NCBI GenBank assembly: GCA_014799475.1
Contig: JAAVHX010000037.1
Location: forward strand, 1-62,263
Direction: 5' to 3'
Length of the DNA stretch: 62,263 nucleotides
DNA from: Clostridiales bacterium
GTDB lineage: Bacteria; Bacillota; Clostridia; Oscillospirales; Oscillospiraceae
The notes under the pieces were generated by a model. The model did no database searches, was not told where the DNA came from, and saw nothing but the letters and a program-made list of their open reading frames with translations. Position numbers and translations under genes: made by a program. Below, piece after piece: positions 9,280 to 29,799 of the stretch; within the stretch, counting starts at the first letter, position 1, and each line of letters starts with the position of its first letter.

Positions 9280-9319
9280 GGAAGCCACTCCTCTCCACAG
9301 GTCATACTTACTTTTTTCA

Positions 9320-9514: not shown

Positions 9515-10555
9515 TCACTGCGCAATACGTCCCTTGGAGTTCTTTTTCACCAGATTCATGCCCCAGTGCCGTTCATAGAAGTCGCAGATTTTATTGTATC
9601 GCTCCATACCCAGCAGATGCATGATTTGCTTCAGCAGCCACCGTTTTGGTTTCGTAATAAGATAATATTTCAGCATCTGCGCTTTCCCCGCGAAACGCGG
9701 TTTCAATTTCCAGATGCTTCTCTTACTGTAGCTAACCCATACCCTTTTAAACTCCGGCGCGCACTCTCCGCGCCGCCAGGGCTTTCCTACCCCAAAATAG
9801 TGAAAAATAACAACGTCAGCATAGTTATCTTTCACAGTTTCGTAAAGTTCCTCATAGCTGTAAGGAAAGTTCGCCTTATAGTAGTCCCATTTCAGCCTGC
9901 GCTCAGGCAAGTACCAGCCAAAATTATATTTTGGAGGCAGAATTTGTATCTTATTTCCGCAAACCGCACTGATCGCGTCCTGATCCGGATAGTCGAGCCG
10001 CTTATCAAAGGTATTTACAAATCGGATGATCCTTTTCCGCACTTCAAATTCCCGATAGTTTTTCAGGTCGATCAGAAGAACACCGGAGTTTATATAGCGG
10101 GCTGTCTCTCCCATATTCAAATATGCGATCCGCTGTGTCTCCAGGGCATCCCGAACGCCCGCCATGCAGTTCTCACCCAAATCCGTGGACATCAGCCCCC
10201 GCAGAGAACCGTTTACAATGGTATCGCCGTCCACATAGAGGGCCTTTTCTACCCCTTCCTCTATGATCTGGTCAATAAAAAACCTGCCGTAGATGGTATT
10301 GTCCCAGCCGTTATCAACTTTTGGATGAAATGCGGAAAAGCTGTCCCCCAGATCATGAAAGGTGGTCACCACATGGGGATAGGCCGCGGCCTGGGCCAGC
10401 AGCTTCTCCCGATTCCCCTCCGATATTCCGTTATCAATGATATAAATATGTATCCGGTCAAAGTCCTCGGCGTTATTTTCCAGCATTGAAAAGAGGCTGA
10501 CCCCCATATAAGGCGCATAGCCGTCATTCGACGCCATCAGCAAATGCAGCTCCAT
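9515..10555 (-). CDS. Family 8 glycosyltransferase
   Basis: A 346-residue cytoplasmic or membrane-associated transferase. I use the ATG at 10555 (MELHLLMASNDGYAP) with GGGGTG just upstream, although a GTG at 10582 is possible. GT8 hallmarks are the N-terminal nucleotide-binding strand, LYVDGDTIVNGSL with the metal-binding DxD (DGD), YINSGVLLIDL, and YPDQDAIS. Family members transfer glucose or galactose from UDP-sugars with retention. The C-terminal 60 residues are basic and may contact the membrane. It is the last gene of the 14-gene minus-strand polysaccharide operon. Its base composition is lower in GC than the pel core, as for the next gene upstream, suggesting this distal end was swapped in. 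Confidence 0.85.
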   Translation of the reverse strand: MELHLLMASNDGYAPYMGVSLFSMLENNAEDFDRIHIYIIDNGISEGNREKLLAQAAAYPHVVTTFHDLGDSFSAFHPKVDNGWDNTIYGRFFIDQIIEEGVEKALYVDGDTIVNGSLRGLMSTDLGENCMAGVRDALETQRIAYLNMGETARYINSGVLLIDLKNYREFEVRKRIIRFVNTFDKRLDYPDQDAISAVCGNKIQILPPKYNFGWYLPERRLKWDYYKANFPYSYEELYETVKDNYADVVIFHYFGVGKPWRRGECAPEFKRVWVSYSKRSIWKLKPRFAGKAQMLKYYLITKPKRWLLKQIMHLLGMERYNKICDFYERHWGMNLVKKNSKGRIAQ

Positions 10556-10598
10556 TTTTTCACCCCATTGCTGTCCTTTCACAATCCGGCTTCCTTAC

Positions 10599-11690
10599 TC
10601 AATTCCGGGATTTCTCACCAGCGGATTTGAGAAATTTATTGACACAGTTCTCAACTGGCCCGCAAACCGCTTCAATTATCCACGAGGACATTACACATAA
10701 AGCCATCATAAGGCAGTAAATGAACACCGGGTATTTTACCACGAAAACCAAATCGGGAAACAGCGTCAGGTAAAAGAACATATGCACAAGCCATATGTTT
10801 GTGGAGTGCTTTCCCCAGAACAGGAAGAACCGTTCCACCCGCTCACTTTTCTTCCAAAGATGGAAGCAGATAAAGAGAAAGGGTGCGGTAAGATGGACCA
10901 GCGCACTTATTCTTATCACGCAGAGAATAACAACAGTAATTGAAACGATGACAGCAAGTCGGCGGTTTGTGAAATTGATCCGCTCCGCCATGCTTTTCAC
11001 CCGCGAGATGACCCGCTCTTTCGCCAGGAGCATCCCCGTCACGTAGAAAAATGACACACGCCAGAGATCGGTAGTCTTCCTAATTAAAAAGCCCTTCCAA
11101 TAGTAGCCGGGGAAGTTCGTACTGATGAATGCCCATCTCCATTTCAGGTGACCCACATAGTACGCGCAGAAGCCGAGTCCAAATACAACAAACAGGATCT
11201 TGCTGTCCAGCTTCTTTACCAGCTTCAAATACAGCGGGGCCAGCAGCATAAACAAAACATAGGTAGAGGCAAACCACCATGCGCCATTATACGTATGCTC
11301 CAGAAGGAAGATATGTCCGAGGAACCTCAAAAAGCTTCCAGGCATTTCCTCCGAGCTTCCAACCAAAAGACTGATCCCCGTAAAAATCAGGCAGACCAGC
11401 CAGAAATGGACCAGGAAATTCAGAAGGCGCGTCCTATTCCTCCTCCGAAATTCTCCGCCTTCCATGGCGGTATACTGGAAAAACAGCGCGTACCCTGTAC
11501 ACATACAGTAAAATGGGACACAAATATCTCCCATAAGAGCGATATAGCTGATCAGCGGAATGCCTTCTTTCACCCAAATCAGCGGCGTACTGCGCACATC
11601 AGCCCCAACTCCAAAGAATAGGTGCAGCACGATCATGCCATGGATCGCTACTCCTTTTGCCATAGAGGTATCTCTTCTGCTCAGCTCCAC
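10599..11690 (-). CDS. Membrane acyltransferase, acyltransferase-3 family
   Basis: A 363-residue multipass protein with about ten hydrophobic segments, typical of OafA/WecH-like O-acetyltransferases. The family His is in the first helix (MIVLHLFFGVG). Expected to move acetyl from acetyl-CoA to a sugar hydroxyl on the nascent or lipid-linked polysaccharide. Its place in the tail of the polysaccharide operon fits a decorating role. The codon use is more AT-rich than the pel core genes. The acyl group and acceptor cannot be read from sequence. Confidence 0.82.
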   Translation of the reverse strand: MELSRRDTSMAKGVAIHGMIVLHLFFGVGADVRSTPLIWVKEGIPLISYIALMGDICVPFYCMCTGYALFFQYTAMEGGEFRRRNRTRLLNFLVHFWLVCLIFTGISLLVGSSEEMPGSFLRFLGHIFLLEHTYNGAWWFASTYVLFMLLAPLYLKLVKKLDSKILFVVFGLGFCAYYVGHLKWRWAFISTNFPGYYWKGFLIRKTTDLWRVSFFYVTGMLLAKERVISRVKSMAERINFTNRRLAVIVSITVVILCVIRISALVHLTAPFLFICFHLWKKSERVERFFLFWGKHSTNIWLVHMFFYLTLFPDLVFVVKYPVFIYCLMMALCVMSSWIIEAVCGPVENCVNKFLKSAGEKSRN

Positions 11691-11720
11691 GCAATCATCT
11701 CCTGCTTTGTTTCGCGGCGG

Positions 11721-12956
11721 TCAGCCCTCCGCAGTCTGAGCGGATTCCCCGAGAAAGCCGCAGAATCGTTCCAGTGAACCCTGCCCGGACAGCTCGTTTT
11801 GGTCGATCCGCTCCACACCCAGCCGTTCCGGATGTTCAATGGCCTGAATGATCCCGTCGGCGATCCCCTCCACGCTCAGCCCCACCAGCAGCCCCGCCCC
11901 ATAGCGGTGAATCTGTTCCACATTGCCGGAGCAGTCCGAGGCAATCACCGGCCTGCCCAGCACCATCGCCTCGGAAATGGAGGTACAGCATCCCTCATAG
12001 TGGGTGGCCTGCACATAAATGTCGCACTCCGCCATACAGGGATAGGGATTTTCCACCGCCCCCAGCAGGACAAACGACTCCTCCAGCCCGTGCTTTCGGA
12101 TCAGATGGCGGATGTTCTCCTCCTCCGGGCCTTCGCCCAGCACGTACCACTTCACGCGGTATCCCCGCGCACGCACCTGGGCCAGCGCGGGCACCGCCAG
12201 ATCGTATGCCTTTACTGGGGTGAGCCGGGCGGCGGTGAGCAGGATGACCTCCCCCGGGCGCTTGACAAACGCGGCCGGCCGGTCCTCTGCCCGCTGGGCG
12301 TCCCGCCGGATCTTTTCACAATCCAGCAGGTTATAAAAGACCTCCATCTTGCCCTCCAAATCGGGATAGGCCTGGGCAAAATGGTCCCGAATGCTCCTGG
12401 AAACGCAGTAGATTTTATCCGCCCGCTCGTAATTAGACCGCTCCAGAGCCGGGCAGTAGCCGCTGTCTATAAATTCGGTGTGCAGAAACGCGACCTTTTT
12501 CCCCGCGTTGACATGATCCATCACATAGCAGGTGGCCGCCCCCTGGATGTAAGCCACCGCCAGGTCATATCGCTCCTCCCACCGGGGGGCGCGGTCGGCC
12601 AGCAGCTTCCAGAACAGCTTTTTGAAATCCAGCCCGCCGTGACTCATCTGATATGCCGCCAGCCGACACAGATAGCCGAACCTCCGGAAGAACCAGCCGC
12701 CCAAAAAACCGCCGCGGAGGATCTCCGCCATCAGCGCCCGCTTGGCGCCCCGGTCCAGTACGGATAGAGCGCAGGGCGGGTCGTTGAGGACGGTTACCCC
12801 CTTGGGCACCTCATTGAACAGCTCGCCCCGGTTGATGACGGAAAAAAGGGAGATTTCATAGCGCTCCCGGTCCATACGCGCCAGCATGGACAGCAGGCAC
12901 CGCTCCGCCCCCGCCCGGCCCATGGTATTGATGACAAACAGAATCTTTTTCTTCAT
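11721..12956 (-). CDS. Family 4 glycosyltransferase
   Basis: A 411-residue GT-B retaining transferase. It starts with MKKKILFVINTMGRAGAERCL (glycine-rich acceptor loop); the donor-site motif is THYEGCCTSISEAMVLGRP with the two glutamates of the EX7E motif, preceded by AARLTPVKAYDLAV. GGGGAGAG lies close to the ATG. The middle of the protein (about 90-150) carries an insertion rich in aromatic residues. It follows the unknown 770-residue membrane protein after 24 bases, and is a good candidate for adding a side or capping sugar to the polymer. Donor sugar unknown. Confidence 0.87.
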   Translation of the reverse strand: MKKKILFVINTMGRAGAERCLLSMLARMDRERYEISLFSVINRGELFNEVPKGVTVLNDPPCALSVLDRGAKRALMAEILRGGFLGGWFFRRFGYLCRLAAYQMSHGGLDFKKLFWKLLADRAPRWEERYDLAVAYIQGAATCYVMDHVNAGKKVAFLHTEFIDSGYCPALERSNYERADKIYCVSRSIRDHFAQAYPDLEGKMEVFYNLLDCEKIRRDAQRAEDRPAAFVKRPGEVILLTAARLTPVKAYDLAVPALAQVRARGYRVKWYVLGEGPEEENIRHLIRKHGLEESFVLLGAVENPYPCMAECDIYVQATHYEGCCTSISEAMVLGRPVIASDCSGNVEQIHRYGAGLLVGLSVEGIADGIIQAIEHPERLGVERIDQNELSGQGSLERFCGFLGESAQTAEG

Positions 12957-12980
12957 CCATCTCTCTCCCCGCGCCGCGGG

Positions 12981-15293
12981 CTATCCTTCTTCCGCCCTCA
13001 GCTGCGCCAGCTTCTCGTCCACCTCGGTGGTGTCTTGCTCCCGCTCCAGCATCCGATCCCGGAGCTGCTCATAATAATCCAGCTCGGAGATCACGTTATA
13101 GCCGTAATCAATGGCGAAATTGTTGGGCATGAAAAGATCCTGCTCGAACTTGTAGACGACGCACTCCTCGTCCTCCAGATAGACCTCCATCTGGTCAGGG
13201 AACGCCCTGCTGTACTCCTCCAGCCAGCAGGCCAGCTTGGCTTCCAGTGCCCGCCTGTTTTCCAAATTGTTATAGTACTTCATCTCTCCGTATTGGGAAA
13301 TTCCCAGCATCTCCCGCGTGACAATGCACGCCGCGTCTGAATCAGACACCGCCTCCAGCGGGTACTCCAATCCGGTTTCCCGGATTTGGTTATAATCAAG
13401 CGGATTCTTTTCCAACACAAAAAAGATGTGATCCGTCGGTATCTCCAGATGCATATCCTCCTGATACCGCTCCATGCCGGTAATAAACTCCCAAAGCTCA
13501 TAATGGTAGCCCGCATTGCGCACCATGGACAGCTCCTCCACCGGGGACACCACCGTCCACGTCCCCCGGGGGAACTCCCGCTCCGCTTGGACGCAGGCCC
13601 TTGCCGCCAATGAGTGCTCCAAATAGTAATAGGTCTGTGCGGGAAAATACCCCAGCTGAACCGAGGCGTAAAACAGCGCCGCCGACGCGGCCAGCGCGGA
13701 AAAGCTGCCCACAGCGTCAGCTCTCCCCGGCAGAATGCGGTATAGCAGCTCCAGCGGGAACACCAGCAGTAAGGGCGCGGTATAGCCGAGGAACATGGAC
13801 ACCCGGCGTTGCTGCATCAGCTGCGGAAACCCCAGAATATAGCTGCCGTACATGACAGTCAGGACCAGCAGGAACAGCCAGATCCCAGCGCACATCCGTT
13901 CCTCAAAGGCCAGCGCTTTCCGCAGCGCCATCACCACCCAGAACACCGCAAACAGCCCCATACCGGCCCAGAACACATAGCCCCAATGGGAATTCATATC
14001 GTTAATAAGGAGTCTGCCCAGCTCCAAGAGCTTTTCCGCCGGACCGGAGGCGGATTGGGCTTTCTCCGGTTCAACCTCCTCTGGAGCTGTCTGCCCACTC
14101 TCCTCCGGCTCCTCGGTGGGCGCCGGTTCCGCGCTCTGGCTTGTGGAGCCGTTGATGACGCTCATGGCCCAGAGCATGGAACCCTGCCATTGCTTCCCCG
14201 ACGCCAGGCCCAGGATCAGCGGCAGAATGCTGAGCGCCGCAATGAGCGCTACGCAGAGCGCCAGCCGCTTTATCATATCCGGCTTCAACACCGTGCGGAT
14301 AAAGGCCACGCAGCAGCACACGCATAAAAGCACCGCCATAATCACCGTGTAAAAGTGCATGGACAGGGTAAGGGACGCGCTGAACACAAAGTAGAGGCCG
14401 TCCTCCCGTTTTTTGTCCTGTAGGAACTTCCCCAGAAAATAGACGCAGGGAAACAGGAACAGCATCCCCAGCTCCTGAGGCAGGGTGTAAATCGCACGGT
14501 AGCCAAAGTCATAACCTGTGAAATCAGAGACGCAGTAGATCACCACCGCCAGCGCCGCCGCCATCCGGGAACGGAACACCCGCCGCGCAAAGAACCAGAG
14601 CATAACCGCCAGAAGCAGGCAGTTTACCGCCCCCCAGTATCGGAAAATTACGTTCAGATGCAGTCCGGTGAGCTTGTGGAAGGCGGAGAGCATATTGTGC
14701 AGCCCGAAGGGATAAACGCCGTTATAAAAGATGTCCCCCTGCTCCATCCAGTTGACCCACTCATGGTGCACATACATATCGGAGGTCAGGTAGGCATAGT
14801 TGTCGAACACCAGCGGCCATTTGTACCAGATCAGCCCGCCCAGCGCCGCCAGCGCCACAAGGCACGCGGCCGCCTGCGTGGGGCTGGGCCGCCATTTTTT
14901 ATCCTGAAGCGCTGCCTTACAGCTTTGCATCCGCCTCCGGACCGCCTGCTTTGCCAGCAGCCCCAGTTTGTACTGGCCGCTTCCCACCAACGCCAGCCAC
15001 CGCAGCGCCGACTGGGCCGCGTCCCGGTAGGAGACGTGCTTCACAAGCTTCAAATAGACCAGCGCCACCGTTAGGAGCGCAATCACCAGCGTGACGGTAT
15101 TGTAAATGTGCAGCAAGCCCAGTAGGTATACACAGCTGATCACCACCACATAGGAGGCGATCAGTGCCTTGAGGGCGTTCTCCCCGGCGTTTTCCCCCCA
15201 CAGTGGGCGGCCCATCAGCTTTGCGGGGATGAAAACCAGGTATAGCAGAAAGAAAAAGGCGAACTGAATGAAATAGAGCACACTGTTCACCAT
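12981..15293 (-). CDS. Large polytopic membrane protein of unknown function within the pel-type operon
   Basis: The ATG at 15293 (MVNSVLYFIQFAFFF) with AGAAGGGGG just upstream gives 770 residues. About a dozen hydrophobic helices span roughly residues 1-25, 45-100 and 150-520, interrupted by an extracytoplasmic Pro/Glu-rich loop (about 385-420), and a soluble C-terminal domain of about 200 residues follows, ending in a charged coiled-coil-like tail (YYEQLRDRMLEREQD...). The architecture recalls GT-C (GT39-like) glycosyltransferases or polymer-ligase-type proteins, but I do not see a convincing conserved DE/DD motif in the first loop. It lies 14 bases after pelE. Standard Pel systems have no such component, so it may be a locus-specific transferase or secretion partner. 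Confidence 0.85.
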   Translation of the reverse strand: MVNSVLYFIQFAFFFLLYLVFIPAKLMGRPLWGENAGENALKALIASYVVVISCVYLLGLLHIYNTVTLVIALLTVALVYLKLVKHVSYRDAAQSALRWLALVGSGQYKLGLLAKQAVRRRMQSCKAALQDKKWRPSPTQAAACLVALAALGGLIWYKWPLVFDNYAYLTSDMYVHHEWVNWMEQGDIFYNGVYPFGLHNMLSAFHKLTGLHLNVIFRYWGAVNCLLLAVMLWFFARRVFRSRMAAALAVVIYCVSDFTGYDFGYRAIYTLPQELGMLFLFPCVYFLGKFLQDKKREDGLYFVFSASLTLSMHFYTVIMAVLLCVCCCVAFIRTVLKPDMIKRLALCVALIAALSILPLILGLASGKQWQGSMLWAMSVINGSTSQSAEPAPTEEPEESGQTAPEEVEPEKAQSASGPAEKLLELGRLLINDMNSHWGYVFWAGMGLFAVFWVVMALRKALAFEERMCAGIWLFLLVLTVMYGSYILGFPQLMQQRRVSMFLGYTAPLLLVFPLELLYRILPGRADAVGSFSALAASAALFYASVQLGYFPAQTYYYLEHSLAARACVQAEREFPRGTWTVVSPVEELSMVRNAGYHYELWEFITGMERYQEDMHLEIPTDHIFFVLEKNPLDYNQIRETGLEYPLEAVSDSDAACIVTREMLGISQYGEMKYYNNLENRRALEAKLACWLEEYSRAFPDQMEVYLEDEECVVYKFEQDLFMPNNFAIDYGYNVISELDYYEQLRDRMLEREQDTTEVDEKLAQLRAEEG

Positions 15294-15307
15294 ACAAAGA
15301 CCCCCTT

Positions 15308-16216
15308 CTATTTCGCCAGCCAGAACCGCACGATCCGCAGCCCCTCTTCCGACAGGGAGACGCTGGACCCGGTCAGCCGCTTCAGCGCCTCGTCGAACTC
15401 CTCGCTTTTCCCCAGAGCGTACTTGATGTACATCACGTTCAGATGGGACTCCTCCGCCTCGGGCAGCCGCTCCAGGGACAGCTCCGCCCACTCCTCGGCT
15501 TCCTTGAACCTGCCAACGCCGTGCAGGGCGCGCACCATGGCGGCATAGTACGCCGGTGTGATCGCCTCCGGGTGGTTTTTCTCCAGATTCTCAACCAGCC
15601 CGATGACCATATACAGGTACTTGTCCCCCTCCACCTTCAGCAGACCGCCGCTGTTCAAGATGCGCAGCACCGCGTCCAGCAGCTCCTGGTTGGCCTGTAG
15701 ATCGGTGCGATCCTTGTCGTAAGCCACTTGCAGGCCGTTCAGTTCCGTGGCAAACCGGCCCAGCACGTCCGTCAGGGCGGTGGCGGCGTAATGGGCGGTC
15801 TCGGAGTCATCGTTCTCCGCCGCCTTGCGCACCAGCGCAAGGTTCTCCCTGGCGTCCAGCCGCAGCATATTCAGCATGGCCCGCCGCTTGTCCCTGGTGC
15901 CGGATACGGCCAGTACCTCCTCCAGGGGCAGCAGCTCCAGCTCCCGCTCCTTATCCACGGGCTGGAGGAACTTCTTCCGGGTCTTGTCGATGCTCAGGTT
16001 CTCGTAGTCCACCTCTCCCTTCCGGAGCACAAGGTCCACCAGAAAGCTGAACAGGAAGCACAGGATCCCCACCACCGGGCACAGCACCATCGTGACGCCC
16101 CGCTGGAACACGTAGCTAGAGCGTTTTTTCAGCCACATCGCCACCATATACACCACTGATATTGCGGTGTTGAGCAGCACGATCCAAAGGATCACTATAT
16201 TACTGTTGAAGCCCAT
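15308..16216 (-). CDS. pelE: PelE-like membrane protein with TPR region
   Basis: A 302-residue protein with two N-terminal membrane helices (about 7-28 and 39-62), then a soluble alpha-helical part with TPR-like repeats (about 110-290, for example YAATALTDVLGRF and YYAAMVRALHGVGRFKEAEEW). PelE in known Pel systems has the same design (two helices plus TPRs, about 300-330 residues) and links PelD, PelF and PelG into the inner-membrane synthase complex. Its start overlaps pelD by 17 bases, the neighbour order pelF-pelG-pelD-pelE being decisive for the call; sequence alone would be weak. Its TPRs face the cytoplasm by analogy. Confidence 0.75.
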   Translation of the reverse strand: MGFNSNIVILWIVLLNTAISVVYMVAMWLKKRSSYVFQRGVTMVLCPVVGILCFLFSFLVDLVLRKGEVDYENLSIDKTRKKFLQPVDKERELELLPLEEVLAVSGTRDKRRAMLNMLRLDARENLALVRKAAENDDSETAHYAATALTDVLGRFATELNGLQVAYDKDRTDLQANQELLDAVLRILNSGGLLKVEGDKYLYMVIGLVENLEKNHPEAITPAYYAAMVRALHGVGRFKEAEEWAELSLERLPEAEESHLNVMYIKYALGKSEEFDEALKRLTGSSVSLSEEGLRIVRFWLAK

Positions 16217-18401
16217 CCGCCAAAACCGCCTCGCTCTTTATTCCGTTATTGTTCAGTTTTTTCACCACAAAGGACGAATCCGCATAATTCGCGTGGACCA
16301 GGATGTATACATACGCGTCCTCATCTTTGAGCTTGCCCAGCCGGTCATCCTCACGGGTCAGCAGCTTGAGCCGGTTGCTCAGCGCTTCCAGAGCCTCGCC
16401 CTGGGCATCCACGCGGATCAGGCTGTAGTCCGCCTCCTCATACTGCGCGGAGCCCAGTTTTTCCTCCATCCGCTGCCGGAACGCCTCCGGGAGCAGGATA
16501 TCCGTGCCAGGATAATATTTCCGGTCCCGTCCCGCCTCCTCATAGCGGTAGCTGCGCTCCAGGCTGGCGGTGATGATCCGGGACAGCACCAGGAACAGAT
16601 CCTTCTGATAGACGTTCAGCTGGTCAAACTTCATATTCCACAGCATAATGATGTAGATCATCCGGCCACCGGAATAGATGGGTGCGGCCATTCTGGGCAT
16701 CTCGGAGCCTACGGTGCGGTCCACATAAATGCCCGGCTCCCCCAGCACACGGCGCAGCTCCGGGTAGTCGTCCAGCCGGAAGGCCCGCTTCATCCCCAAT
16801 GCCTCCTGCCCGGTGGCGCCGGACAGGTGAAAATATCCCTCCTGTCCCGCCCGGTAGAGACTGACATCCTTCACCTTCATGATCTTCTGCACTACGCCCA
16901 GGGAGGACTGCGCCACCTTCTCCGGATCCAGCACGTCCAGCTCCGAGACAATGCTGTACACCTTCCCGATGCTGTCCCCGTAATTCAACAGGCGCTGCTC
17001 AAAGGCGTGCTTGATTTCCACATTGGTATTGTCCACCTCATAGAGCATATCGTACTCTTCCTGAATATCATTCGCCCGCTCCTCCTGCTCCCGGAGGCGG
17101 AGCTTAAAGCGCAGGATGGTATAGGAGACGATGATGGCAAGGATGAGGTAAAACAAAAAGCCGAAGATAAACGGATACTGGGCAATCAGGGTAGAAAACC
17201 CCAGCCCGGTATGCCGCATGGCAAAATACAGATTTGCCCCCGTGGCCAGCACCACGGCCAGCACGCTGTGCCCCACGCCCAATCCAATGGCGGCGATCAG
17301 AATATACAGCAGCATGAAATCCACCCGCTCGAACAGCTCCATGGATCCCAGCGTATTGACCAAAAGCAGCGACACCAGAAACAGCGCCAGATTTTCCACC
17401 AGCCGCTTCCCACTGGCGGCAACCATGCGCAGGTCGTCCTTCCAGCGCTTTTTGCCCCTGTTTTTCTCTTCCGCCTGGGCAGCCTTGTCCCGCTCCACCA
17501 GGTATTCGCTATTTTTATCTACAAACGCGAAGGTGCGCGCCAGGCCGGTGGACAGCTCTACATGGGGCGCGTAGGAGAACTCGGCGGCAAACCGGCTCCC
17601 ATCCAAGGAGAGGCAGCCCTCCTCCTCCCACTCCCGCGCCCGCACGGGATGCCCGCACAGATCCTGAAGCCGCTCGGCAAGCTCCTTGTCCGAAACCACC
17701 GACGCGCCCTCCACCTGGTAGAGAAGCTCCTGGGGGCGCGGATTGCAAAGGGCCTTGTACACCGCGTCCACCGCGTCCGACACATAGATCGCCATGGATC
17801 GGACGGGATCTTCCCGCTGAATCGTCCCGCTTATTTTTCCATCCAGGCAGAGCTGCTCCATGGGATTGAGCTTCTCATACAAAAAGTGGGAGGGCCCATA
17901 CACCTCTGGAAAGCGCAGGATGGTGACCGCCGTGACCGCGTCATGGTAGAGCCGGCACAGGCACTCGCCGCTGTAAGCCGTCATCCCCGCCGACCCCGCG
18001 GGCTTCGGCTCCCGCTCCGGCGCCAGCCTTTCCCCGGCATTCCCGCCAAACACCGCCATGCTGGACAGGTAGAGGAAACGCTTCACCCCATATGCCTTTG
18101 CCCAGATCAGCACATTGCTCAGATCGGCGGCGTATTGGGCGGAGGTCCTGTCCTTTTCCCAGTCATATCCATCGTCCTGCGCGCCCAAAAACACGATGGC
18201 ATCGGGCAGGACGCTGCGGATGATGTATTTCACCGCCACATCGCCAGGCTCGAACTCATAGATGCTGTGGGCGGGCAGCCGTATCGCCTTCATCTTGGAA
18301 TTTTTCCCCGCGATGGTATAGATCTCGCACTGTTCCCGGCGCAGACGCTCAATCAGGTAATTCATCATAAAGCCGTATGAACCGACCACCAGAACCTTCA
18401 T
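16200..18401 (-). CDS. pelD: PelD-like c-di-GMP receptor fused to an N-terminal SDR/epimerase-type domain
   Basis: A 733-residue fusion. Residues 1-290 are an extended SDR fold: VLVVGSYGFMMNYLIERL (degenerate GxxGxxG), FLYLSSMAVFGG, and Y-S-G-E in place of YxxxK, so catalysis is doubtful. Four membrane helices follow (about 325-435), then a coiled stretch, a GAF domain (about 470-625) and a degenerate GGDEF-type domain without a GG(D/E)EF signature. Near its end, REDD (R683-D686) matches the RxxD inhibitory-site motif by which PelD binds c-di-GMP. PelD normally has four helices, GAF and degenerate GGDEF, and gates polymer synthesis by PelF/PelG. ATGA overlap with pelG; overlap of 17 bases with pelE. 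The SDR part is the unusual feature. Confidence 0.82.
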   Translation of the reverse strand: MKVLVVGSYGFMMNYLIERLRREQCEIYTIAGKNSKMKAIRLPAHSIYEFEPGDVAVKYIIRSVLPDAIVFLGAQDDGYDWEKDRTSAQYAADLSNVLIWAKAYGVKRFLYLSSMAVFGGNAGERLAPEREPKPAGSAGMTAYSGECLCRLYHDAVTAVTILRFPEVYGPSHFLYEKLNPMEQLCLDGKISGTIQREDPVRSMAIYVSDAVDAVYKALCNPRPQELLYQVEGASVVSDKELAERLQDLCGHPVRAREWEEEGCLSLDGSRFAAEFSYAPHVELSTGLARTFAFVDKNSEYLVERDKAAQAEEKNRGKKRWKDDLRMVAASGKRLVENLALFLVSLLLVNTLGSMELFERVDFMLLYILIAAIGLGVGHSVLAVVLATGANLYFAMRHTGLGFSTLIAQYPFIFGFLFYLILAIIVSYTILRFKLRLREQEERANDIQEEYDMLYEVDNTNVEIKHAFEQRLLNYGDSIGKVYSIVSELDVLDPEKVAQSSLGVVQKIMKVKDVSLYRAGQEGYFHLSGATGQEALGMKRAFRLDDYPELRRVLGEPGIYVDRTVGSEMPRMAAPIYSGGRMIYIIMLWNMKFDQLNVYQKDLFLVLSRIITASLERSYRYEEAGRDRKYYPGTDILLPEAFRQRMEEKLGSAQYEEADYSLIRVDAQGEALEALSNRLKLLTREDDRLGKLKDEDAYVYILVHANYADSSFVVKKLNNNGIKSEAVLADGLQQ

Positions 18402-21288: not shown

Positions 21289-21305
21289 CCGACGCCCTCC
21301 TCTCC

Positions 21306-22820: not shown

Positions 22821-22836
22821 TTCCCTCCGCCCTTTA

Positions 22837-23811
22837 TTATGACAGATATTCCTTGTACCAGCCGATAGTCAGGGCCAGTCCCCGCGCAAAGTCGAAGTCC
22901 GGGTGGTAGTCCAGCAGTCTCCGCGCCTTGCTGATGTCCGCGTGGGAGTGGCGCACATCCCCCGCTCTGGGCTGGACGAACTCGGGCTCCATCTGTACGC
23001 CCAGCGCCGCGCAGATGTCCCGATACACATCAAGGATGGTGTCGCGCCCGCCGCAGGCGACATTGAACACCTCGCCCGCCGCCGCCGGCGCGGTACACGC
23101 CTTCAGGTTCGCCTCGATGACGTTTTCGATGTAGGTAAAGTCCCTGGATTGCAGCCCGTCCCCGTGGATCCGGGGGCGCTGCCCCCGCAGCAGCAGCCGG
23201 ACAAACAGCGGGATCACCGCTGCGTAGGCGGAGTCCGGGTCCTGCCGCCGACCAAACACGTTAAAATAGCGCAGCCCCACCGTCTCCAGCCCGTACAGCT
23301 TGGTGTAGAGCTTGGCGTATTCCTCGTCCGCCCGCTTGGTCAGCGCGTAGGGGGACAGTACGGCGCCCTCGTCTCCCTCGCGCTTGGGGAGCGTCTGGGA
23401 ATCGCCGTACACCGACGAGGAGGAGGCGTATACAAACCGCTTTACCCCCGTCTCCTTTGCCGCCTCCAGCATATTCAGTGTTCCCCGGATGTTGATCTCC
23501 TCGTAGAGCAGCGGCAGCTGGATGCTCCTCGGCACGCTGCCCCAGGCCGCCTGATGGAGCACATAATCCGCCCCCGCGCACACCTCCCGGCACGTCTCCA
23601 GGTCCCGGATGTCCCCCCGGAGGAAGCGGAACTCGCCCAGCCCGGACAGCCCCGCCAGATTCTCCTCCCTGCCCGTGGACAAATCGTCCAGGCAGCGCAC
23701 AGCGCACCCTTTGTTCAGCAGCGCTTCACACAGGTTCGACCCGATAAAACCGGCGCCGCCGGTGACGACCACCACGGTGCCCTTTGGAAACACGACCTCC
23801 TGATAGCTCAC
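22837..23811 (-). CDS. UDP-N-acetylglucosamine 4-epimerase, WbpP/PelX-like (extended SDR)
   Basis: A 324-residue NAD-dependent epimerase: TGGAGFIGSNL (NAD loop), HQAAWGSVPRSI, SSSSVYGDS, catalytic YALTK (YxxxK), and LRYFNVFGRRQDPDSAYAAVIP. The phrases HQAA-GSVPRS and NVFGRRQDP mark the WbpP group that interconverts UDP-GlcNAc and UDP-GalNAc, unlike GalE. PelX plays this role in some pel operons. It would feed UDP-GalNAc to PelF and to the 6-dehydrogenase at the head of the operon. It overlaps the stop of the GT2 gene by four bases. Confidence 0.85.
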   Translation of the reverse strand: MSYQEVVFPKGTVVVVTGGAGFIGSNLCEALLNKGCAVRCLDDLSTGREENLAGLSGLGEFRFLRGDIRDLETCREVCAGADYVLHQAAWGSVPRSIQLPLLYEEINIRGTLNMLEAAKETGVKRFVYASSSSVYGDSQTLPKREGDEGAVLSPYALTKRADEEYAKLYTKLYGLETVGLRYFNVFGRRQDPDSAYAAVIPLFVRLLLRGQRPRIHGDGLQSRDFTYIENVIEANLKACTAPAAAGEVFNVACGGRDTILDVYRDICAALGVQMEPEFVQPRAGDVRHSHADISKARRLLDYHPDFDFARGLALTIGWYKEYLS

Positions 23812-24743
23812 AGCAGTTCCCTCCTTCCTGCCTCCGCGGCATCATGCAGCAGTATCACATCCAGCTCCTCAAAGCGCGCCCTGCGCATCCGGCTGATCTG
23901 AAGGGACAGCAGCCCAAAGCAGAATAGCTGGGCGCCAAACAGGATCAGCACCGCCGCCAGCACCGGCAGCCCATTCCCCCAGCGCACGGCGCTTATGGTG
24001 CCGTACAAGGCCCCCACCAGGACCAGCGCCGTGCCGCAGCTCCCAAACACCCGCATGGGGTGGAACAGCAGGATCACATTCAGGATCAGCAGGATGGTTC
24101 GCAGCCCGTCCCGGACCTGCTTGACGGAGCTTTTGCCCACCCGCTTGCGCACGATGATCGGCACCTCTCCGCCCAGATAGCCCTCCTCCTGCATCAACAG
24201 GGTGGTCACGGTGGACGCCCCAAACCCCTGCGGCAGCAGGGACAGGTATTTCAGCAGCACGCCCCGCCGGAACGCCCGCAGACCCGAGTTGAAATCCGTG
24301 GGGTTCTGGCGGGCAAACACCCGCAGGAAAACGCGCAGGATAGCCTTTCCCAGCGCCCTGCCGGGATCCTCATAGGAGTCCTTCCCCCGCACACCGATGC
24401 AGTAGTCCAGGTCCCTCTGCCAAAGCTCCTCCACCACCCGGACCAGATCCTCCGGCCGGTGCTGCCCGTCGGCGTCGTACCAGGCGATGACCTCCCCCTC
24501 CGCCAACCGGGCCCCGGTCTTGATGGCCGCGCCGTAGCCCCTGTTCCGCCCATGGCGGATCAGCCGGACCTCCGGGAAAGCGGCGGCCTTTTCCGCCGTG
24601 TCGTCCAAGGAGCCGTCGTCCACCACGATGATCTCCGTCTCCTCCAGATCCACAAACGCGATCAGCTCCTCCAGAGCCGCCGCAATCCCCTCGCCCTCGT
24701 TATAGGCCGGGATAATCACGCTCAGCCGCTTATGTACGCTCAT
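23808..24743 (-). CDS. Family 2 glycosyltransferase with C-terminal membrane helices
   Basis: The ATG at 24743 gives MSVHKRLSVIIPAYNEGEGI and 311 residues. GT-A features: VVDDGSLDDT, WYDADGQHRPEDL (DxD) and NPTDFNSGLRAFRR. Two hydrophobic helices near the C-terminus (about 233-255 and 263-290) resemble dolichyl/undecaprenyl-phosphate glycosyltransferases (DPM1/GtrB group), which load a sugar onto a lipid carrier. The start lies inside the preceding gene (14-base overlap). Such an enzyme could supply lipid-linked sugar for the unknown GT-C-like membrane protein; this is inference. Confidence 0.85.
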   Translation of the reverse strand: MSVHKRLSVIIPAYNEGEGIAAALEELIAFVDLEETEIIVVDDGSLDDTAEKAAAFPEVRLIRHGRNRGYGAAIKTGARLAEGEVIAWYDADGQHRPEDLVRVVEELWQRDLDYCIGVRGKDSYEDPGRALGKAILRVFLRVFARQNPTDFNSGLRAFRRGVLLKYLSLLPQGFGASTVTTLLMQEEGYLGGEVPIIVRKRVGKSSVKQVRDGLRTILLILNVILLFHPMRVFGSCGTALVLVGALYGTISAVRWGNGLPVLAAVLILFGAQLFCFGLLSLQISRMRRARFEELDVILLHDAAEAGRRELL

Positions 24744-25653
24744 CTTGCCGCCCCTCCGCGCTCCGCCGCAGCCGCGGCAGCCGCCGTTTTCTGTCTCTCC
24801 AGATCCGCCTGGCAACGTAATACAGCCGGAGGCGGAACCGCCTGCGCTCCTCTTTGCTCAGCCGTTTTTTCAAATAGCGGTAATACTCTTTGAAATACTT
24901 CCCGTAGTATTCCAACTGCCACGGCTTCAGCTTGCCCATGTAATGGACGATCACCGGGTCCTCCTTGTCGTGCCGCAGCTTCAGCACAAACAGCAGCAGG
25001 TTCCACGCCGTTCCATAGCCGGTGTTGAAATTGTAAATCCGCGGGGCAAGCAGGAAGTCCTCTTGGAAATAGAGGTTCATCACATCCTGGTCCGGGTAGG
25101 AGGTCCTGTCCCGGTACTCCTCCAAAAGACCGATGAAGCGGTCCAGGGAAAAGTCCGCGCGCATTTTCTCCAGGTTGAACAGCAGCACGCCGGAATTGAC
25201 ATAGTCATAGCTCTCCGGCAGGCCGATGGCCGCCTTCTTGTCCGACAGCATATGGTTGACGGCGTGATCCGCGATCCCCACCAGGGCTTTCCCCTGGAAA
25301 TCCATCTCATACAGCGGCGAGATGTCCCCCCGGATCAGGATGTCCGGGTCCAGATACAGCACCCGCTCCTCCGTCTCCGGCAGCAGCGCTCCGCACAGGA
25401 ACCGATAGTACATCTCTTTCGGGAAATATCCGAACACGGGGGCGTCCCGGAACGCCGTCCCATCTACAAAGATGGGGAAGAACCGTCCGCCGTGCTCCGC
25501 CATATATCGTTGAAGCTGCCCCCTGCTCTCCTCCGATACGTCTGAGTAGAGCAGGTACAGGTCCACCGGCTCCGGTCCCTGGGCATACAGTGAGTCCAGC
25601 ATCACAAACAGGGGCCGGATATATTTCTCGTTCAGCGTCACCAGAATATTCAT
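24730..25653 (-). CDS. Family 8 glycosyltransferase
   Basis: 307 residues with all GT8 marks: MNILVTLNEKYIRPLFVML, VLYLDPDILIRGDI (DPD metal site), YVNSGVLLFNLEKM, SYPDQDVMNLYF, and VIVHYMGKLKPW (the C-terminal donor-site HxGxxKPW). The tail is very basic (RRRFRLRLYYVARRIWRDRK), suited to binding acidic lipids. It uses UDP-hexose with retention in the family. Located between the GT4 and GT2 genes and overlapping the latter. GC-rich like the pel core, unlike the GT8 at the distal end. Confidence 0.88.
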   Translation of the reverse strand: MNILVTLNEKYIRPLFVMLDSLYAQGPEPVDLYLLYSDVSEESRGQLQRYMAEHGGRFFPIFVDGTAFRDAPVFGYFPKEMYYRFLCGALLPETEERVLYLDPDILIRGDISPLYEMDFQGKALVGIADHAVNHMLSDKKAAIGLPESYDYVNSGVLLFNLEKMRADFSLDRFIGLLEEYRDRTSYPDQDVMNLYFQEDFLLAPRIYNFNTGYGTAWNLLLFVLKLRHDKEDPVIVHYMGKLKPWQLEYYGKYFKEYYRYLKKRLSKEERRRFRLRLYYVARRIWRDRKRRLPRLRRSAEGRQDERT

Positions 25654-25672
25654 CTGTCTCTCCCTCGATCCC

Positions 25673-26749
25673 CTACAGCGCGTTCAGCAGCGCCTCCCAC
25701 TGGTCCAGCACGGCGCGCAGGGAGAACCGGCCCACTGACAGCCTGGCCCGCTCCCCCAGCTCTTGGCGAAGCTGCTCCGAGCCCATCAGCCGGCGCAGCC
25801 CCTGGGCAAATCCGGCGCAGTCCCCCACGGGAAACAGGAAACCGTCCTCCCCGTCTGTGACAATATCCCGGGGCCCGGCCTTACAGGCAAAGCTGACCAC
25901 CGGCCTGCCGTACGCCATGGCCTCGATGAGCACCATGCCGAAGCCCTCGTCCCGGGAGGGCAGCGCGAAGATCCCCGCCTGCCGGTACAGGGCGCCCATA
26001 TCCGCCGCCTGCCCGGGCAGCTCCACCCGGCGCAGCCCCAGCGCCTCGCGCCGCGCCTCCAGCGCCTGCCGCTCCTCGCCCTCGCCCACGATGCGCAGCG
26101 TCCAGTCCGGGAACTCGGCCTCCACCTCGGCCCAGCTCTCCAGCAGGAGGTCAAAGCCCTTGGCCCGGGTCAACCGCCCCGCGGCCAGCACCAGCCGCCC
26201 CCCAACGTCCTCCCGGACCGCGTCCTCGAAGGGATTGGGGTTGTATATCTGGCACAGCCTGCCCCGGATCTTCAGATTCTCCTCGTAATACGCCCGGTCC
26301 TCTTGGGTGAGCACCAGCACGACATGGGAAAACCGCGCCGCCAGCCGCATGGCCACCCGGCGAAGCCGGTTGTTCTTGCGGAAATGATAGTAAAAATTGA
26401 AGTGCTCCCATGCAATCCGCTTTATCCCTGGCAGGCCCGCCGTGGCCGGCAGGCTGTACAGCGTCAGGATCAGATCCACGTCCACCAGGACAGGCAGCGC
26501 TTCCTCCCTGACGGCCCTGCGCAGCCCGCGCACCGTCCGCAGATGCTGGACCACCGTGCCGGGATAGTCGTCTCCGAGACGGCGGAACGTGATCCTGCCG
26601 TCCAGCGGGAAGGCCAGCTCGTCCTTCCCCCACACGCTGATCACCACCACCTGATGGCCCCGCTCCGCCAGGCCATTGGCAATCTGCTGGAGCACCCGCT
26701 CGGTGCCGCCCGCGTTGCTCATATTGCCGATCAAAAAGCCGATCCTCAT
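25673..26749 (-). CDS. Family 4 glycosyltransferase
   Basis: The chosen ATG at 26749 (MRIGFLIGNMSNAGGTERVL) gives 358 residues; upstream codons overlap the previous gene. Acceptor-side glycine loop SNAGGTERV; core LAAGRLTRAKGFDLLL; donor motif SRDEGFGMVLIEAMAYGRP with both EX7E glutamates. Typical GT4 transferase of exopolysaccharide loci. It is the second gene of the operon, 13 bases after the 6-dehydrogenase. Donor and acceptor unknown; a uronic acid or HexNAc transfer would fit the neighbours. Confidence 0.87.
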   Translation of the reverse strand: MRIGFLIGNMSNAGGTERVLQQIANGLAERGHQVVVISVWGKDELAFPLDGRITFRRLGDDYPGTVVQHLRTVRGLRRAVREEALPVLVDVDLILTLYSLPATAGLPGIKRIAWEHFNFYYHFRKNNRLRRVAMRLAARFSHVVLVLTQEDRAYYEENLKIRGRLCQIYNPNPFEDAVREDVGGRLVLAAGRLTRAKGFDLLLESWAEVEAEFPDWTLRIVGEGEERQALEARREALGLRRVELPGQAADMGALYRQAGIFALPSRDEGFGMVLIEAMAYGRPVVSFACKAGPRDIVTDGEDGFLFPVGDCAGFAQGLRRLMGSEQLRQELGERARLSVGRFSLRAVLDQWEALLNAL

Positions 26750-26762
26750 CCCGCGTTTTCCC

Positions 26763-28088
26763 CTACAGCCGCCAGTAGCAGCAGCCCGCTTCCTCATACT
26801 GCCGCCGGTCATAGATCCCCTTGACGTCCACCAGCAGCCGCTGGGGCAGCTCCGGCCTGTAATAGCCGGCCCAGTCCTCCGGCGTGTAGTCCCGGAACTG
26901 CCGGTGGGCCACCGCCACGATCACCGCGTCCAGGCTGCCCTTCTCCACCCGCTCCAGCGGGGTGAGCTCCACGCCGTAGAGCGCCTTCGCCGCCTCCGCG
27001 TCTGCGGCGGGGTCCACAATGACAGGGCAGGCCTGGTATTCCTCCAGCTCCCGCACAATGTCAATCACCTTGGTGTTGCGCACGTCGGGGCAGTTCTCCT
27101 TGAAGGTGAAGCCGAACACACCGATCCGCGCCCCCTTGATGGGCACGCCCAGACCAATGAGCTTTTTCACCGCGCAGCCCGCGATATACACACCCATGTT
27201 ATCGTTGATCCGGCGCCCCGCCAAAATGACCTCGGAGTGGTAGCCCAGCCGCTGGGCCTGGTAGGTCAGGTAGTACGGGTCGATCCCAATGCAGTGCCCG
27301 CCCACGATGCCCGGCTGAAAGTCCAGAAAGTTCCACTTCGTGCCCGCCGCCCGCAGCACGTCCTGGGTGTCGATCCCCATTTTGTGGAAGATGATGGACA
27401 GTTCGTTCATAAAGGCGATGTTGATGTCCCGCTGGGAATTTTCGATCACCTTGGCCGCTTCCGCCACCATGATGCTCTCCGCCCGGTACACCCCCGCCTT
27501 CACCACCAGTTCGTACACCTTGGCCACCAGCTCCCGGGTCTGCTCATCGCAGCCGCTGACGATCTTCACGATGTTGTCCAGCCTATGTACCCGGTCGCCG
27601 GGGTTGATCCGCTCCGGGGAGTAGCCCACTTTGAAATCCTTCTGATAAACCAGTCCCGATTCCCGTTCCAGGATGGGGACGCAGACCTCCTCCGTCAGCC
27701 CCGGGTAGACCGTGGACTCATAGACCACCACGGCCCCCGGCTTCATGTGCCGGCCCAGCAGCGCGCTGGCGCTGATCAGCGGCTTGAGGTCAGGTATTTT
27801 GCTCTCGTCAATGGGCGTGGGAACGGCCACAATAAAAAAGCCCGCCTCGTCCAGATCGGTCTCGTCCGCCGTAAAGCGGACCGCGCTGCCGCGCAGCATC
27901 TCCGCCCCCACCTCTCCGGTCACGTCAACCCCCGCGCGCAGGCTTTGGATCTTAGCTTCATTGATGTCAAAGCCTACCACATCTACGTGCCGGGAAAAGT
28001 TCACGGCAATGGGAAGCCCCACATACCCCAGGCCGACAACGCACAAGCTGCGCCGCCTGTCGATCAAATCCTCATATAAGCAATTCAT
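26763..28088 (-). CDS. UDP-N-acetylhexosamine 6-dehydrogenase (WbpO/TviB-like)
   Basis: 441 residues from the ATG at 28088, with AGGAG about ten bases upstream; a TTG at 28118 is the only other start. NAD motif VVGLGYVGLPIAV; VPTPIDESKIPDL; ESTVYPGLTEE; catalytic Cys in GGHCIGIDPYYLT; FGFTFKENCPDVRNTK. This pattern belongs to the WbpO/TviB/VipA group that oxidises UDP-GalNAc or UDP-GlcNAc to the uronic acid, rather than to plain UDP-glucose dehydrogenases. As first gene of the operon it implies that the product contains an acidic aminosugar, unlike classical cationic Pel. The upstream leader is about 100 bases without a clear minus-strand promoter. Confidence 0.87.
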   Translation of the reverse strand: MNCLYEDLIDRRRSLCVVGLGYVGLPIAVNFSRHVDVVGFDINEAKIQSLRAGVDVTGEVGAEMLRGSAVRFTADETDLDEAGFFIVAVPTPIDESKIPDLKPLISASALLGRHMKPGAVVVYESTVYPGLTEEVCVPILERESGLVYQKDFKVGYSPERINPGDRVHRLDNIVKIVSGCDEQTRELVAKVYELVVKAGVYRAESIMVAEAAKVIENSQRDINIAFMNELSIIFHKMGIDTQDVLRAAGTKWNFLDFQPGIVGGHCIGIDPYYLTYQAQRLGYHSEVILAGRRINDNMGVYIAGCAVKKLIGLGVPIKGARIGVFGFTFKENCPDVRNTKVIDIVRELEEYQACPVIVDPAADAEAAKALYGVELTPLERVEKGSLDAVIVAVAHRQFRDYTPEDWAGYYRPELPQRLLVDVKGIYDRRQYEEAGCCYWRL

Positions 28089-28197
28089 CGCGGCTCGCTC
28101 TCCTCTCTCTTTTTCCAATCACGGGTCCTCCCAAACCCGGACGGCGGATATATCGCGTTTTGCTCCGCCCCCTCCGCTTCGGCGGAAATTCTACCTC

Positions 28198-28226
28198 TTG
28201 CAAAATATCGACCGGTGTATTATCAT
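28198..28226 (+). promoter_or_regulatory. Sigma-A promoter of the flippase gene
   Basis: TTGCAA (28198-28203), 17-bp spacer, TATCAT (28221-28226), about 30 bases before the GTG at 28258 with GGGAGGG at 28244-28250. The 170-bp space between the divergent dehydrogenase and flippase genes must also hold the promoter of the long minus-strand operon, but I could not settle its position. A TAGAAT-like element lies on the minus strand near 28190. Confidence 0.6.
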
Positions 28227-28257
28227 ATCTCTCACCACGGATTGGGAGGGTTCAATT

Positions 28258-29799
28258 GTGCGAACCAAGGCTCTGCTGAAAAACGGAATGATCATCCTGA
28301 TCGTTCAGCTGCTTTCCTATGGCATGGATTTTGTATGCCGCTGGGCCTTTATTGCCAACCTTTCCATGGACTATGTTGGAGTCAAGGGGCTGTTCTCCAA
28401 CACGCTGGAGCTCCTCTCCCTTACGGAGCTGGGCTTGGGCACAGTGATCGTCTACAGCCTTTACGCCCCCCTTGCCGCCGGGGATAAACGCAAAATCCTC
28501 GCCCTGCTCCAGTTCTACAAGAAAGCTTACCTTGCCATCGCTTGCCTCGTGGGCGGGATCGGGGTGCTGCTTACCCCATTCCTTCCCCATCTGATCAAGG
28601 ACTCGCCGGATATCGACCACCTGTATACGATTTTTCTTCTCTATTTGGCCAACTCTGTCGTGTCTTACTTTTTTACCTATAAAACCGCGCTGTTCCTGGC
28701 CGACCAAAAGCTTTATGTTACAACACTGTGGAACTGCGGCATGAACGCCCTGCGAAGCATCGTGCAAATCGCCATCCTGTTCCTCACCAAAAACTACCTG
28801 CTGTTTTTGGCCGTAAAAATTCCGTTTACCTTGGCGGGCAATCTCACTTTATCCAAACGGGCTGAGAAAACTTATCCGTTTCTGATGTCGGGCAGCCGGC
28901 CCGCTCTGACCGGGGATGAGAAAAAATCCCTCCTGCGGAACGTTTTTGCCATGTTTGGCCACCGAAGCGGGGCCACCATCCTCAACTCCACCGATAACCT
29001 GGTCATCAGCCGCTTTATCGGTCTCGCCGCCGTGGCCATCAACGACACTTATGCGATGATCCTCAATATGGTTCACTTACTTGTAAACCAGATGTTTTCC
29101 GCGCTCACGGCCAGCGTGGGCAATCTGAACGCCACCGAGTCCGCTGAAACCTCCTACCGGGTGTTCCGGATCCTCCATTTCTGCGGCTTCTGGTTTTACA
29201 CCTTCTGCGCCACCTGTCTGTTTGTGCTGCTCAACCCATTTATTGAACTGGTCTTTGGGGCGCGGTTCCTGTTTGATCCGCTGATCGTCGCGATCATCTG
29301 CCTGAATTTCTACATCATCGGCATCCGCAAGGTGCCGCTGATCTTCAAAGAGTCCATGGGGCTGCTTTGGCAGGATTGGTACGCCCCCCTTCTGGAGGTG
29401 TGCATCAACCTCACGGTATCCATCGCCCTGGCCTGCTGGTATGGCGTCATCGGTGTATATGTGGGGACCACCGTATGTATGCTGGCCACATCCTTCTGGA
29501 TGGAGCCCTATGTGCTGTTCCGGCACGGCCTGAAGCGCTCCTGGGGGGCGTTTTGGCGCACCAATCTCAAGTATTTTGCGGTTTCGTTTCTCACCGTCGC
29601 GCTGACCTATTTGGGCGGGATGCTGTATCAGGGGCCGCTTCTGGCTGAGCTGGCCGTCAAGGGTCTCTTGTGCCTGATGATCCCCAACGCGCTGCTGTTT
29701 TTGCTGTTCCGCCGCTCGGAGGAATTTGCCGGGTTCCTGTCCAAGCTCAAAGCAGTGCTGCCCAAACAGCGATTTGTGAACAAAACAAACATTTTGTAA
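28258..29799 (+). CDS. Wzx-like polysaccharide flippase (MOP superfamily)
   Basis: A GTG start at 28258 with GGGAGGG seven bases upstream gives 513 residues. Twelve to fourteen hydrophobic helices, with the Wzx-style N-terminus KNGMIILIVQLLSYGMDFVC and STDNLVISRFIGLAAV in the middle. Flippases of this type move undecaprenyl-linked sugar units outward. It stands alone on the plus strand, divergent from the polysaccharide operon, and is the only plus-strand gene of the locus. With PelG also present there are two different MOP transporters, one presumably for lipid-linked units, the other for the Pel-type chain. No Wzy polymerase was identified with certainty. Confidence 0.88.
   Translation: MRTKALLKNGMIILIVQLLSYGMDFVCRWAFIANLSMDYVGVKGLFSNTLELLSLTELGLGTVIVYSLYAPLAAGDKRKILALLQFYKKAYLAIACLVGGIGVLLTPFLPHLIKDSPDIDHLYTIFLLYLANSVVSYFFTYKTALFLADQKLYVTTLWNCGMNALRSIVQIAILFLTKNYLLFLAVKIPFTLAGNLTLSKRAEKTYPFLMSGSRPALTGDEKKSLLRNVFAMFGHRSGATILNSTDNLVISRFIGLAAVAINDTYAMILNMVHLLVNQMFSALTASVGNLNATESAETSYRVFRILHFCGFWFYTFCATCLFVLLNPFIELVFGARFLFDPLIVAIICLNFYIIGIRKVPLIFKESMGLLWQDWYAPLLEVCINLTVSIALACWYGVIGVYVGTTVCMLATSFWMEPYVLFRHGLKRSWGAFWRTNLKYFAVSFLTVALTYLGGMLYQGPLLAELAVKGLLCLMIPNALLFLLFRRSEEFAGFLSKLKAVLPKQRFVNKTNIL

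Follow-up and report, generated by a model that had tools for sequence, protein, structure and literature searches.

What does a Pel locus make when the active site of its deacetylase is gone? This question is raised by a contig of 62,263 nucleotides from a Clostridiales bacterium (JAAVHX010000037.1; "the window" hereafter means this whole stretch), which carries pelF, pelG, pelD, pelE and a DUF2194 gene for a homologue of the deacetylase PelADA. We confirm that this is a true Pel-type synthase locus. Its PelADA lacks the catalytic residues, as do the PelADA proteins of a broad clade of relatives, and a membrane protein with a predicted GT-C fold accompanies the loss. We favour, with a probability of about 0.6, a pathway in which PelF and PelG, gated by cyclic diguanylate (c-di-GMP), act on a chain that is not deacetylated and that the GT-C enzyme glycosylates outside the membrane, giving a non-cationic, branched relative of Pel.

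The Pel core and its altered PelADA

Fourteen minus-strand genes, running from 28118 to 9515 with intergenic gaps of at most 30 bp, form a single operon in the order dehydrogenase, GT4, GT8, GT2, epimerase, PelADA-like, PelF, PelG, PelD, PelE, membrane protein, GT4, acyltransferase, GT8. The preliminary description had placed pelF, pelG, pelD, pelE, the DUF2194 gene and an epimerase in such a 14-gene operon, and all of them are present. The Pel core is as follows:

21306 to 22820, minus strand: PelADA homologue without the deacetylase catalytic residues, a pseudo-deacetylase (DUF2194 130.3 bits, cut-off 30.4)
19870 to 21288, minus strand: PelF, GT4 polymerase (NF038011 351.7 bits, cut-off 100)
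18398 to 19870, minus strand: PelG exporter (PF16933 360 bits, cut-off 29)
16200 to 18401, minus strand: PelD, with an N-terminal epimerase/short-chain dehydrogenase-reductase (SDR) domain and a C-terminal c-di-GMP-type I-site (REDD motif)
15308 to 16216, minus strand: PelE (assigned by position and by phmmer matches to open reading frames (ORFs) of other pel loci)

The profile searches proposed in the preliminary description thus place PelF and PelG far over their cut-offs. No Pfam or NCBIfam PelD or PelE model matched the window proteins; the phmmer matches of PelE to intact loci score 31 to 105 bits.

Residues of PelADA are numbered here as in Bacillus cereus. The window protein is without D263, H350, H354 and H488 and contains no HPD or HGxNH-type motif. 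We compared 100 PelADA proteins, window included, and treated eight further intact ones alike (22 intact in total). Among the 100 rows, 85 are altered (the window protein being one), 14 are intact and one is partial. The DD pair, H354 and H488 are kept in none of the 85 altered proteins (the fragment L044 does not reach H488), H350 is missing in 83 and D263 in 62. Motif counts made without an alignment agree: HPD[DEA] occurs in 0/85 altered proteins and in 14/14 and 8/8 intact ones, and HGxNH-like, DD[FYL]P and any HxxxH are found in 2, 2 and 6 altered proteins, respectively, each being present in 14/14 intact ones. On these counts, and with 22 intact proteins handled identically, we reject chance or misaligned loss of residues. 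The gene had earlier been called deacetylase-like. The clade-wide loss of catalytic residues, which is the strongest ground for expecting a different product, had been overlooked.

The altered proteins do not look like decaying pseudogenes. The ratio of nonsynonymous to synonymous substitution rates (dN/dS) is 0.067–0.220 in 12 close pairs, indicating purifying selection, and is low in both halves of the protein where computable (one half-value could not be computed). These values are somewhat higher than those of PelF (0.018–0.128, 11 computable pairs). We reject decay with caution, as dS exceeds 1 in several pairs and the ratios are rough. The AlphaFold2 (AF2) model of the window protein (predicted local distance difference test (pLDDT) 90) has a predicted N-terminal membrane helix and a related fold. 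Its top Foldseek match is Agd3; the B. cereus PelADA structure 9ZAU is not among the 50 Foldseek or VIA matches listed for it.

Loss of the active site matters in the characterised systems. Deacetylase activity is reported to be required for Pel in B. cereus, where mutants in the motifs MT1/MT2 produce no Pel (PMC13254593), so the clade-wide loss is meaningful. A deacetylase mutant of Pseudomonas aeruginosa PelA likewise yields no extracellular Pel (PMC10269871). For Streptococcus intermedius, published work suggests a neutral Pel consisting mostly of GalNAc (N-acetylgalactosamine), for which pelADA is still needed. This fits a role of PelADA beyond deacetylation, though in a different lineage.

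Two loci stand apart. Just outside the main clade, the PelADA of L007:6243-8063 (plus strand) retains D262, H354 and H488 and by alignment has lost D263, H350, R458 and D491, and may be an intermediate or a second loss. At L011:2-3316 (plus strand), a large Big_4 and PF01522 deacetylase lies upstream of pelD and no PelADA was found at this locus; it is perhaps a replacement.

We built a tree from PelF and PelG of 97 loci (quick search, LG+G4, rooted on L018). The 78 altered rows with both genes, together with two of unknown status, form one clade (Shimodaira–Hasegawa-like approximate likelihood ratio test 97), and the tree needs one change between intact and altered PelADA. Seven altered rows are outside this tree, some near-root forks are unresolved and several branches are long. 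The clade retains PelF, PelG and PelE together with a PelD that bears the I-site. R291, K296, E370 and E378 of PelF are invariant across 97 aligned rows. At a 90% threshold, a single fixed difference (V387I) separates the altered from the intact group, and C4A is the sole PelF change specific to the five-member subclade of the window, at positions otherwise 90% conserved. With one fixed difference, the backbone is probably unchanged.

The window PelD retains the c-di-GMP I-site motif RxxD (REDD near residue 683). All aligned PelD proteins that reach this site have RxxD; those of L011 and L052 fall short of it. The SDR cofactor motifs of the window PelD look altered. The window genome (2.08 Mb, 87% complete) encodes two GGDEF proteins, which makes control by c-di-GMP plausible.

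A predicted GT-C-fold protein that accompanies the altered PelADA

Two further products of the operon bear on what happens to the chain:

12981 to 15293, minus strand: GT-C-fold membrane glycosyltransferase (no Pfam or NCBIfam family; predicted structure)
23808 to 24743, minus strand: GT2, polyprenyl-phosphate-sugar synthase-like (AglJ TIGR04182 111.4 bits and PpgS NF058614 87.2 bits, both below the equivalog cut-offs)

The membrane protein, whose gene starts near 15293 rather than at 15491, has 770 residues and no match in Pfam or NCBIfam. Its AF2 model (pLDDT 91, predicted template modelling score 0.91) matches oligosaccharyltransferases, PglB, AglB, ArnT, Pmt and AftA. The TM-scores are modest (0.31–0.39 by query in the top rows) and the VIA root-mean-square deviations are 4 to 8.7, as for distant relatives. 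On this model the protein is predicted to have a GT-C fold. D172, H176 and H199 are invariant in 57 rows; D172 may be the acidic residue that GT-C enzymes conserve in the first external loop.

Accessory genes were counted in roughly 10 kb of sequence to either side of pelF. With the window counted, 69/85 altered loci have a GT-C homologue; where pelF is flanked by 7 kb or more on both sides, the figure is 50/51. Such homologues were found in 0/14 and 0/8 intact loci, of which 11 and 6 satisfy the same flank rule (0/17). Across the 84 fetched altered loci, a PpgS-like GT2 occurs in 58, DUF2304 in 48, and all three genes in 44, contig ends hiding some of them. None of this trio occurs in the 14 intact loci, and one further intact locus (L114) gave one weak GT2 match of 63 bits. 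We also considered whether the GT-C enzyme is a general household protein and rejected this: matches over 700 bits occur in 4/391 genomes of the class, all four at pel loci (one of these loci is broken), with distant homologues in two more genomes.

That these genes form one functional module working with PelF-type polymers is best supported by two independent pairings. In L118 and L120, a distant GT-C homologue, a PpgS-like GT2 and DUF2304 lie near PelF-family genes without PelG. The host genomes (G297 and G560 of the class set) have no PelG match, and their PelF-family GT4 proteins score 134 and 168 bits (cut-off 100). These stretches (L118:1802-15618 and L120:5583-16108) possibly belong to a related, unnamed polysaccharide locus; a MurJ-family protein is also found in L118. 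In genome G543, a broken GT-C-type pel locus was seen (L116:15126-15560, plus strand) in which PelF breaks off after 144 residues, with no PelG found beyond it. Downstream of pel, some clade members carry Stealth, DUF4832/DUF4874 and NTP_transf_5 genes (L078:18143-19150; L006:13829-15145 and 16731-17951).

A probable acidic sugar, the proposed pathway and its alternatives

The remaining genes of the operon, and the flippase beside it, are:

26763 to 28118, minus strand: nucleotide-sugar 6-dehydrogenase, TviB/WbpO-like (TIGR03026 372.4 bits, above the cut-off of 189.8)
25673 to 26812, minus strand: GT4 glycosyltransferase GT4a (PF00534 133.9 bits)
24730 to 25653, minus strand: GT8 glycosyltransferase GT8a (PF01501 114.1 bits)
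22837 to 23811, minus strand: WbpP/TviC-like 4-epimerase of uridine diphosphate (UDP)-N-acetylhexosamine (HexNAc) or its uronic acid (HexNAcA) (WbpP, 1sb8, the nearest solved structure, 309 bits)
11721 to 12956, minus strand: GT4 glycosyltransferase GT4b (PF00534 92.4 bits; homologues in many related loci)
10599 to 11690, minus strand: acyltransferase family 3 (PF01757 70.3 bits)
9515 to 10582, minus strand: GT8 glycosyltransferase GT8b (PF01501 139.2 bits)
28258 to 29799, plus strand: MOP-type flippase, GTG start (MatE 20.7 bits, below the cut-off of 24.9)

The dehydrogenase, for which an alternative ATG start exists at 28088, reaches 500.8 bits against the TviB equivalog NF011729, short of its cut-off of 592, and probably converts UDP-HexNAc to UDP-HexNAcA. 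The epimerase scores 279 bits against the TviC equivalog NF011728 (cut-off 760). The WbpO/WbpP and TviB/TviC pairs together make UDP-N-acetylgalactosaminuronic acid (UDP-GalNAcA). In the stretches read, four loci have the dehydrogenase: the window, L028, L029 and L034. A close epimerase (529–544 bits) occurs in the same loci and in L027, whose contig ends early; L015, L018 and L049 gave weaker matches (71–169 bits). With the dehydrogenase limited to four loci in these stretches, we reject the TviB/TviC-like pair as the cause of the catalytic loss. Since PelF carries no fixed change except V387I, or C4A in the subclade, we would assign the acidic sugar to side chains and not to the backbone.

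These genes agree with the preliminary description in that a Pel-type locus sits among extra transferases, a WbpP-like epimerase and a TviB-like dehydrogenase. The flippase, which had been counted in the gene set, is divergent and lies outside the operon; homologues stand beside pel on the opposite strand in L028, L029, L031, L033 and L034. The "different, branched, acidic" product announced there is partly supported. A difference from classical cationic Pel is to be expected. An acidic product we infer for the window and three relatives, where the dehydrogenase occurs.

In the pathway we favour, c-di-GMP bound to PelD would switch PelF on, PelF would polymerise a GalNAc-type backbone and PelG would export it. 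PelADA would no longer deacetylate the emerging chain and would instead hold or guide it. The GT2 enzyme would load a sugar onto polyprenyl phosphate, with DUF2304 as membrane partner in many relatives. The lipid-linked sugar, maybe first extended by the GT4/GT8 enzymes and maybe turned over by the flippase, would then be transferred to the chain by the GT-C enzyme outside the membrane. For the window's subclade, we expect UDP-GalNAc and UDP-GalNAcA to come from the TviB-like and WbpP-like enzymes, so that the side chain would probably be acidic and perhaps, in the window itself, O-acylated. Overall, the product of these bacteria is probably a relative of Pel that is decorated and either uncharged or acidic. 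More tentatively, such loci may represent a hybrid mode of exopolysaccharide synthesis, in which c-di-GMP-gated PelF/PelG builds the backbone and a GT-C enzyme resembling oligosaccharyltransferases attaches lipid-linked sugars or oligosaccharides to it outside, with the former deacetylase as docking platform.

Several observations weigh against this pathway. The third c-di-GMP arginine (Bc R395) is apparently Lys in the window PelD and its closest relatives, judged by eye. The window GT2, which aligns to AglJ over nearly the full profile, is below the curated PpgS and AglJ cut-offs; the PpgS equivalog NF058614 (cut-off 370) gives 87 bits for the window, 72 for L006 and 74 for L015. A profile search found no DUF2304 among the 14 products of the window, and most of the clade lacks the dehydrogenase within the stretches read. 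A second site in G297 (L119) has a distant GT-C homologue with no partner genes within the 20 kb read. L049 has an altered PelADA and no GT-C gene within 10 kb; as this is an early branch of the clade, the catalytic loss may have come first. Because the tree has that loss occurring just once, its association with the GT-C enzyme is not replicated. Finally, three PF01522 deacetylase matches elsewhere in the window genome could act in trans.

The last point would suit an ordinary cationic Pel, deacetylated by another enzyme, as would L011, a pel locus without PelADA that has a PF01522 protein upstream of pelD. However, among L002–L106 no ORF of an altered locus shows a CE4-type motif pattern (L011 gave the sole match), and the GT-C gene accompanies the catalytic loss, so we consider this distinctly improbable. 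Somewhat less improbable, but still unlikely, is that the pel genes now serve a capsule or teichoic-type pathway with a polymer unlike Pel, in which PelF adds one of several sugars and the GT-C enzyme acts as ligase or polymerase. The window does hold five further GT2/GT4/GT8 transferase genes and a flippase, and Whitfield et al. leave a polymer unrelated to Pel possible for the Roseburia clusters (PMC7112168). Against this, PelF, PelG, PelE and an I-site-bearing PelD stay together throughout the clade, and PelF is the sole known polymerase family among the Pfam and NCBIfam matches listed for the window operon.

The TviB- and TviC-like genes upstream of pelADA-pelF in the operon suggest yet another product. 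Vi is alpha-1,4-GalNAcA, and PelF might make poly-alpha-1,4-GalNAcA from UDP-GalNAcA, O-acylated by the family 3 acyltransferase. We regard such a backbone as very unlikely: C4A alone is specific to the PelF of the window's subclade, and the dehydrogenase was not found in loci other than the four named.

Spread of the locus and relation to known Pel systems

The clade with altered PelADA is mostly Lachnospiraceae, and its genomes are mostly from gut and rumen clostridia by their labels. One member, L104, is held by Olsenella porci (Actinomycetota), which suggests transfer between phyla. Counting matches over the cut-off, with the window genome included and the taxon sets overlapping, PelG occurs in 6/250 genomes of the family (five at 360 bits or more, the sixth a 30-bit partial match), 8/295 of the order, 15/391 of the class and 13/398 of the phylum (two partial or weak). 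Four genomes of the same genus gave no PelG match. The closest PelF proteins (74–75% identical) are those of L027, L028, L029 and L034, from metagenome-assembled genomes (MAGs) labelled Lachnospiraceae or Robinsoniella. In L028, L029 and L034, 12 of the operon's genes recur with their order kept, together with the divergent flippase; neither the acyltransferase nor the second GT8 is one of these 12. L027 is cut by contig ends. The right flank (window 32.2–38.7 kb) shows gene-by-gene synteny with each of the four same-genus genomes (about 45–85% identity), reaching 42 kb in one of them. This rejects a contaminant contig for the right flank; the left flank yielded a single weak match. The pel locus was likely gained horizontally by the window's lineage.

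A few neighbouring features were also seen. A XerD-like tyrosine recombinase gene (window 30137–30982, minus strand) adjoins the pel locus, which was not found in the four congeners. A hybrid sensor kinase gene (window 6307–9402, minus strand), which could be regulatory, begins 112 bp downstream of the operon and is followed by a solute-binding protein gene. The lowest G+C of the window (0.378) is at 1–2000, around a DUF6414 gene (560–1726). In a simple scan, no operon-strand promoter and no terminator reached the threshold. The bacterium had been described as spore-forming. This is not supported, as no Spo0A_C match was found in the 87%-complete genome, which does not prove absence.

Gram-positive pel loci had been credited to Bacillus, which is too narrow, since they are published for clostridia, streptococci and actinobacteria. 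The pelDEADAFG operon of B. cereus ATCC 10987 (PMC7112168) likewise unites homologues of PelD, E, ADA, F and G, with the RxxD motif, and the SDR-bearing PelD is an architecture already described for clostridia in the same paper. In contrast, the window has the order ADA-F-G-D-E, a PelADA without catalytic residues, and additional GT-C, GT2, GT4, GT8, acyltransferase, dehydrogenase and epimerase genes. B. cereus PelADA (9ZAU, CE26/CBM114; PMC13254593) is homologous to the window protein (phmmer E 4.3e-4), which is about 100 residues shorter and has lost D263, HxxxH and H488. The Vi antigen pathway shares a related dehydrogenase and epimerase; the equivalog cut-offs are missed and matches to TviE are weak only. 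A parallel in logic is mycobacterial: PpgS, a small membrane protein (Rv3632) and Rv3779 are thought to decorate arabinogalactan with galactosamine (PMC3485146), which again joins a GT2, a small membrane protein and a membrane glycosyltransferase on an exported polymer. The window GT2 falls below the PpgS cut-off and the acceptor is different.

In the titles and abstracts listed for the open-licence literature, which covered PelADA inactivation, DUF2194 and PelF, the Roseburia loci, Vi-like or uronic products, and GT-C or polyprenyl enzymes in connection with Pel, we found no report of these findings. New here, then, are the clade-wide loss of the PelADA active site and the GT-C module; Gram-positive and clostridial pel loci were already known. 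Larger Roseburia clusters, with pel genes inside a larger cluster as in the window, have been described and left functionally unexplained (PMC7112168), and the excerpts of that account mention neither active-site loss of PelADA nor a GT-C protein. Loci L056, L066, L078 and L100, from MAGs labelled Roseburia, belong to the altered clade, and the clusters of S7 Fig in Whitfield 2020 are likely of the same kind. The question of the Roseburia clusters thereby becomes specific and testable, and the locus points to a GT-C family that matches no Pfam or NCBIfam entry. A broad clade that keeps the other inner-membrane parts of Pel, has probably lost deacetylation and has gained a glycosyltransferase module would indicate that the Pel machine can make a different class of matrix polymer. 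Hybrid synthesis by PelF and a GT-C enzyme, if true, would be a third fate of Pel besides the cationic and plain GalNAc forms.

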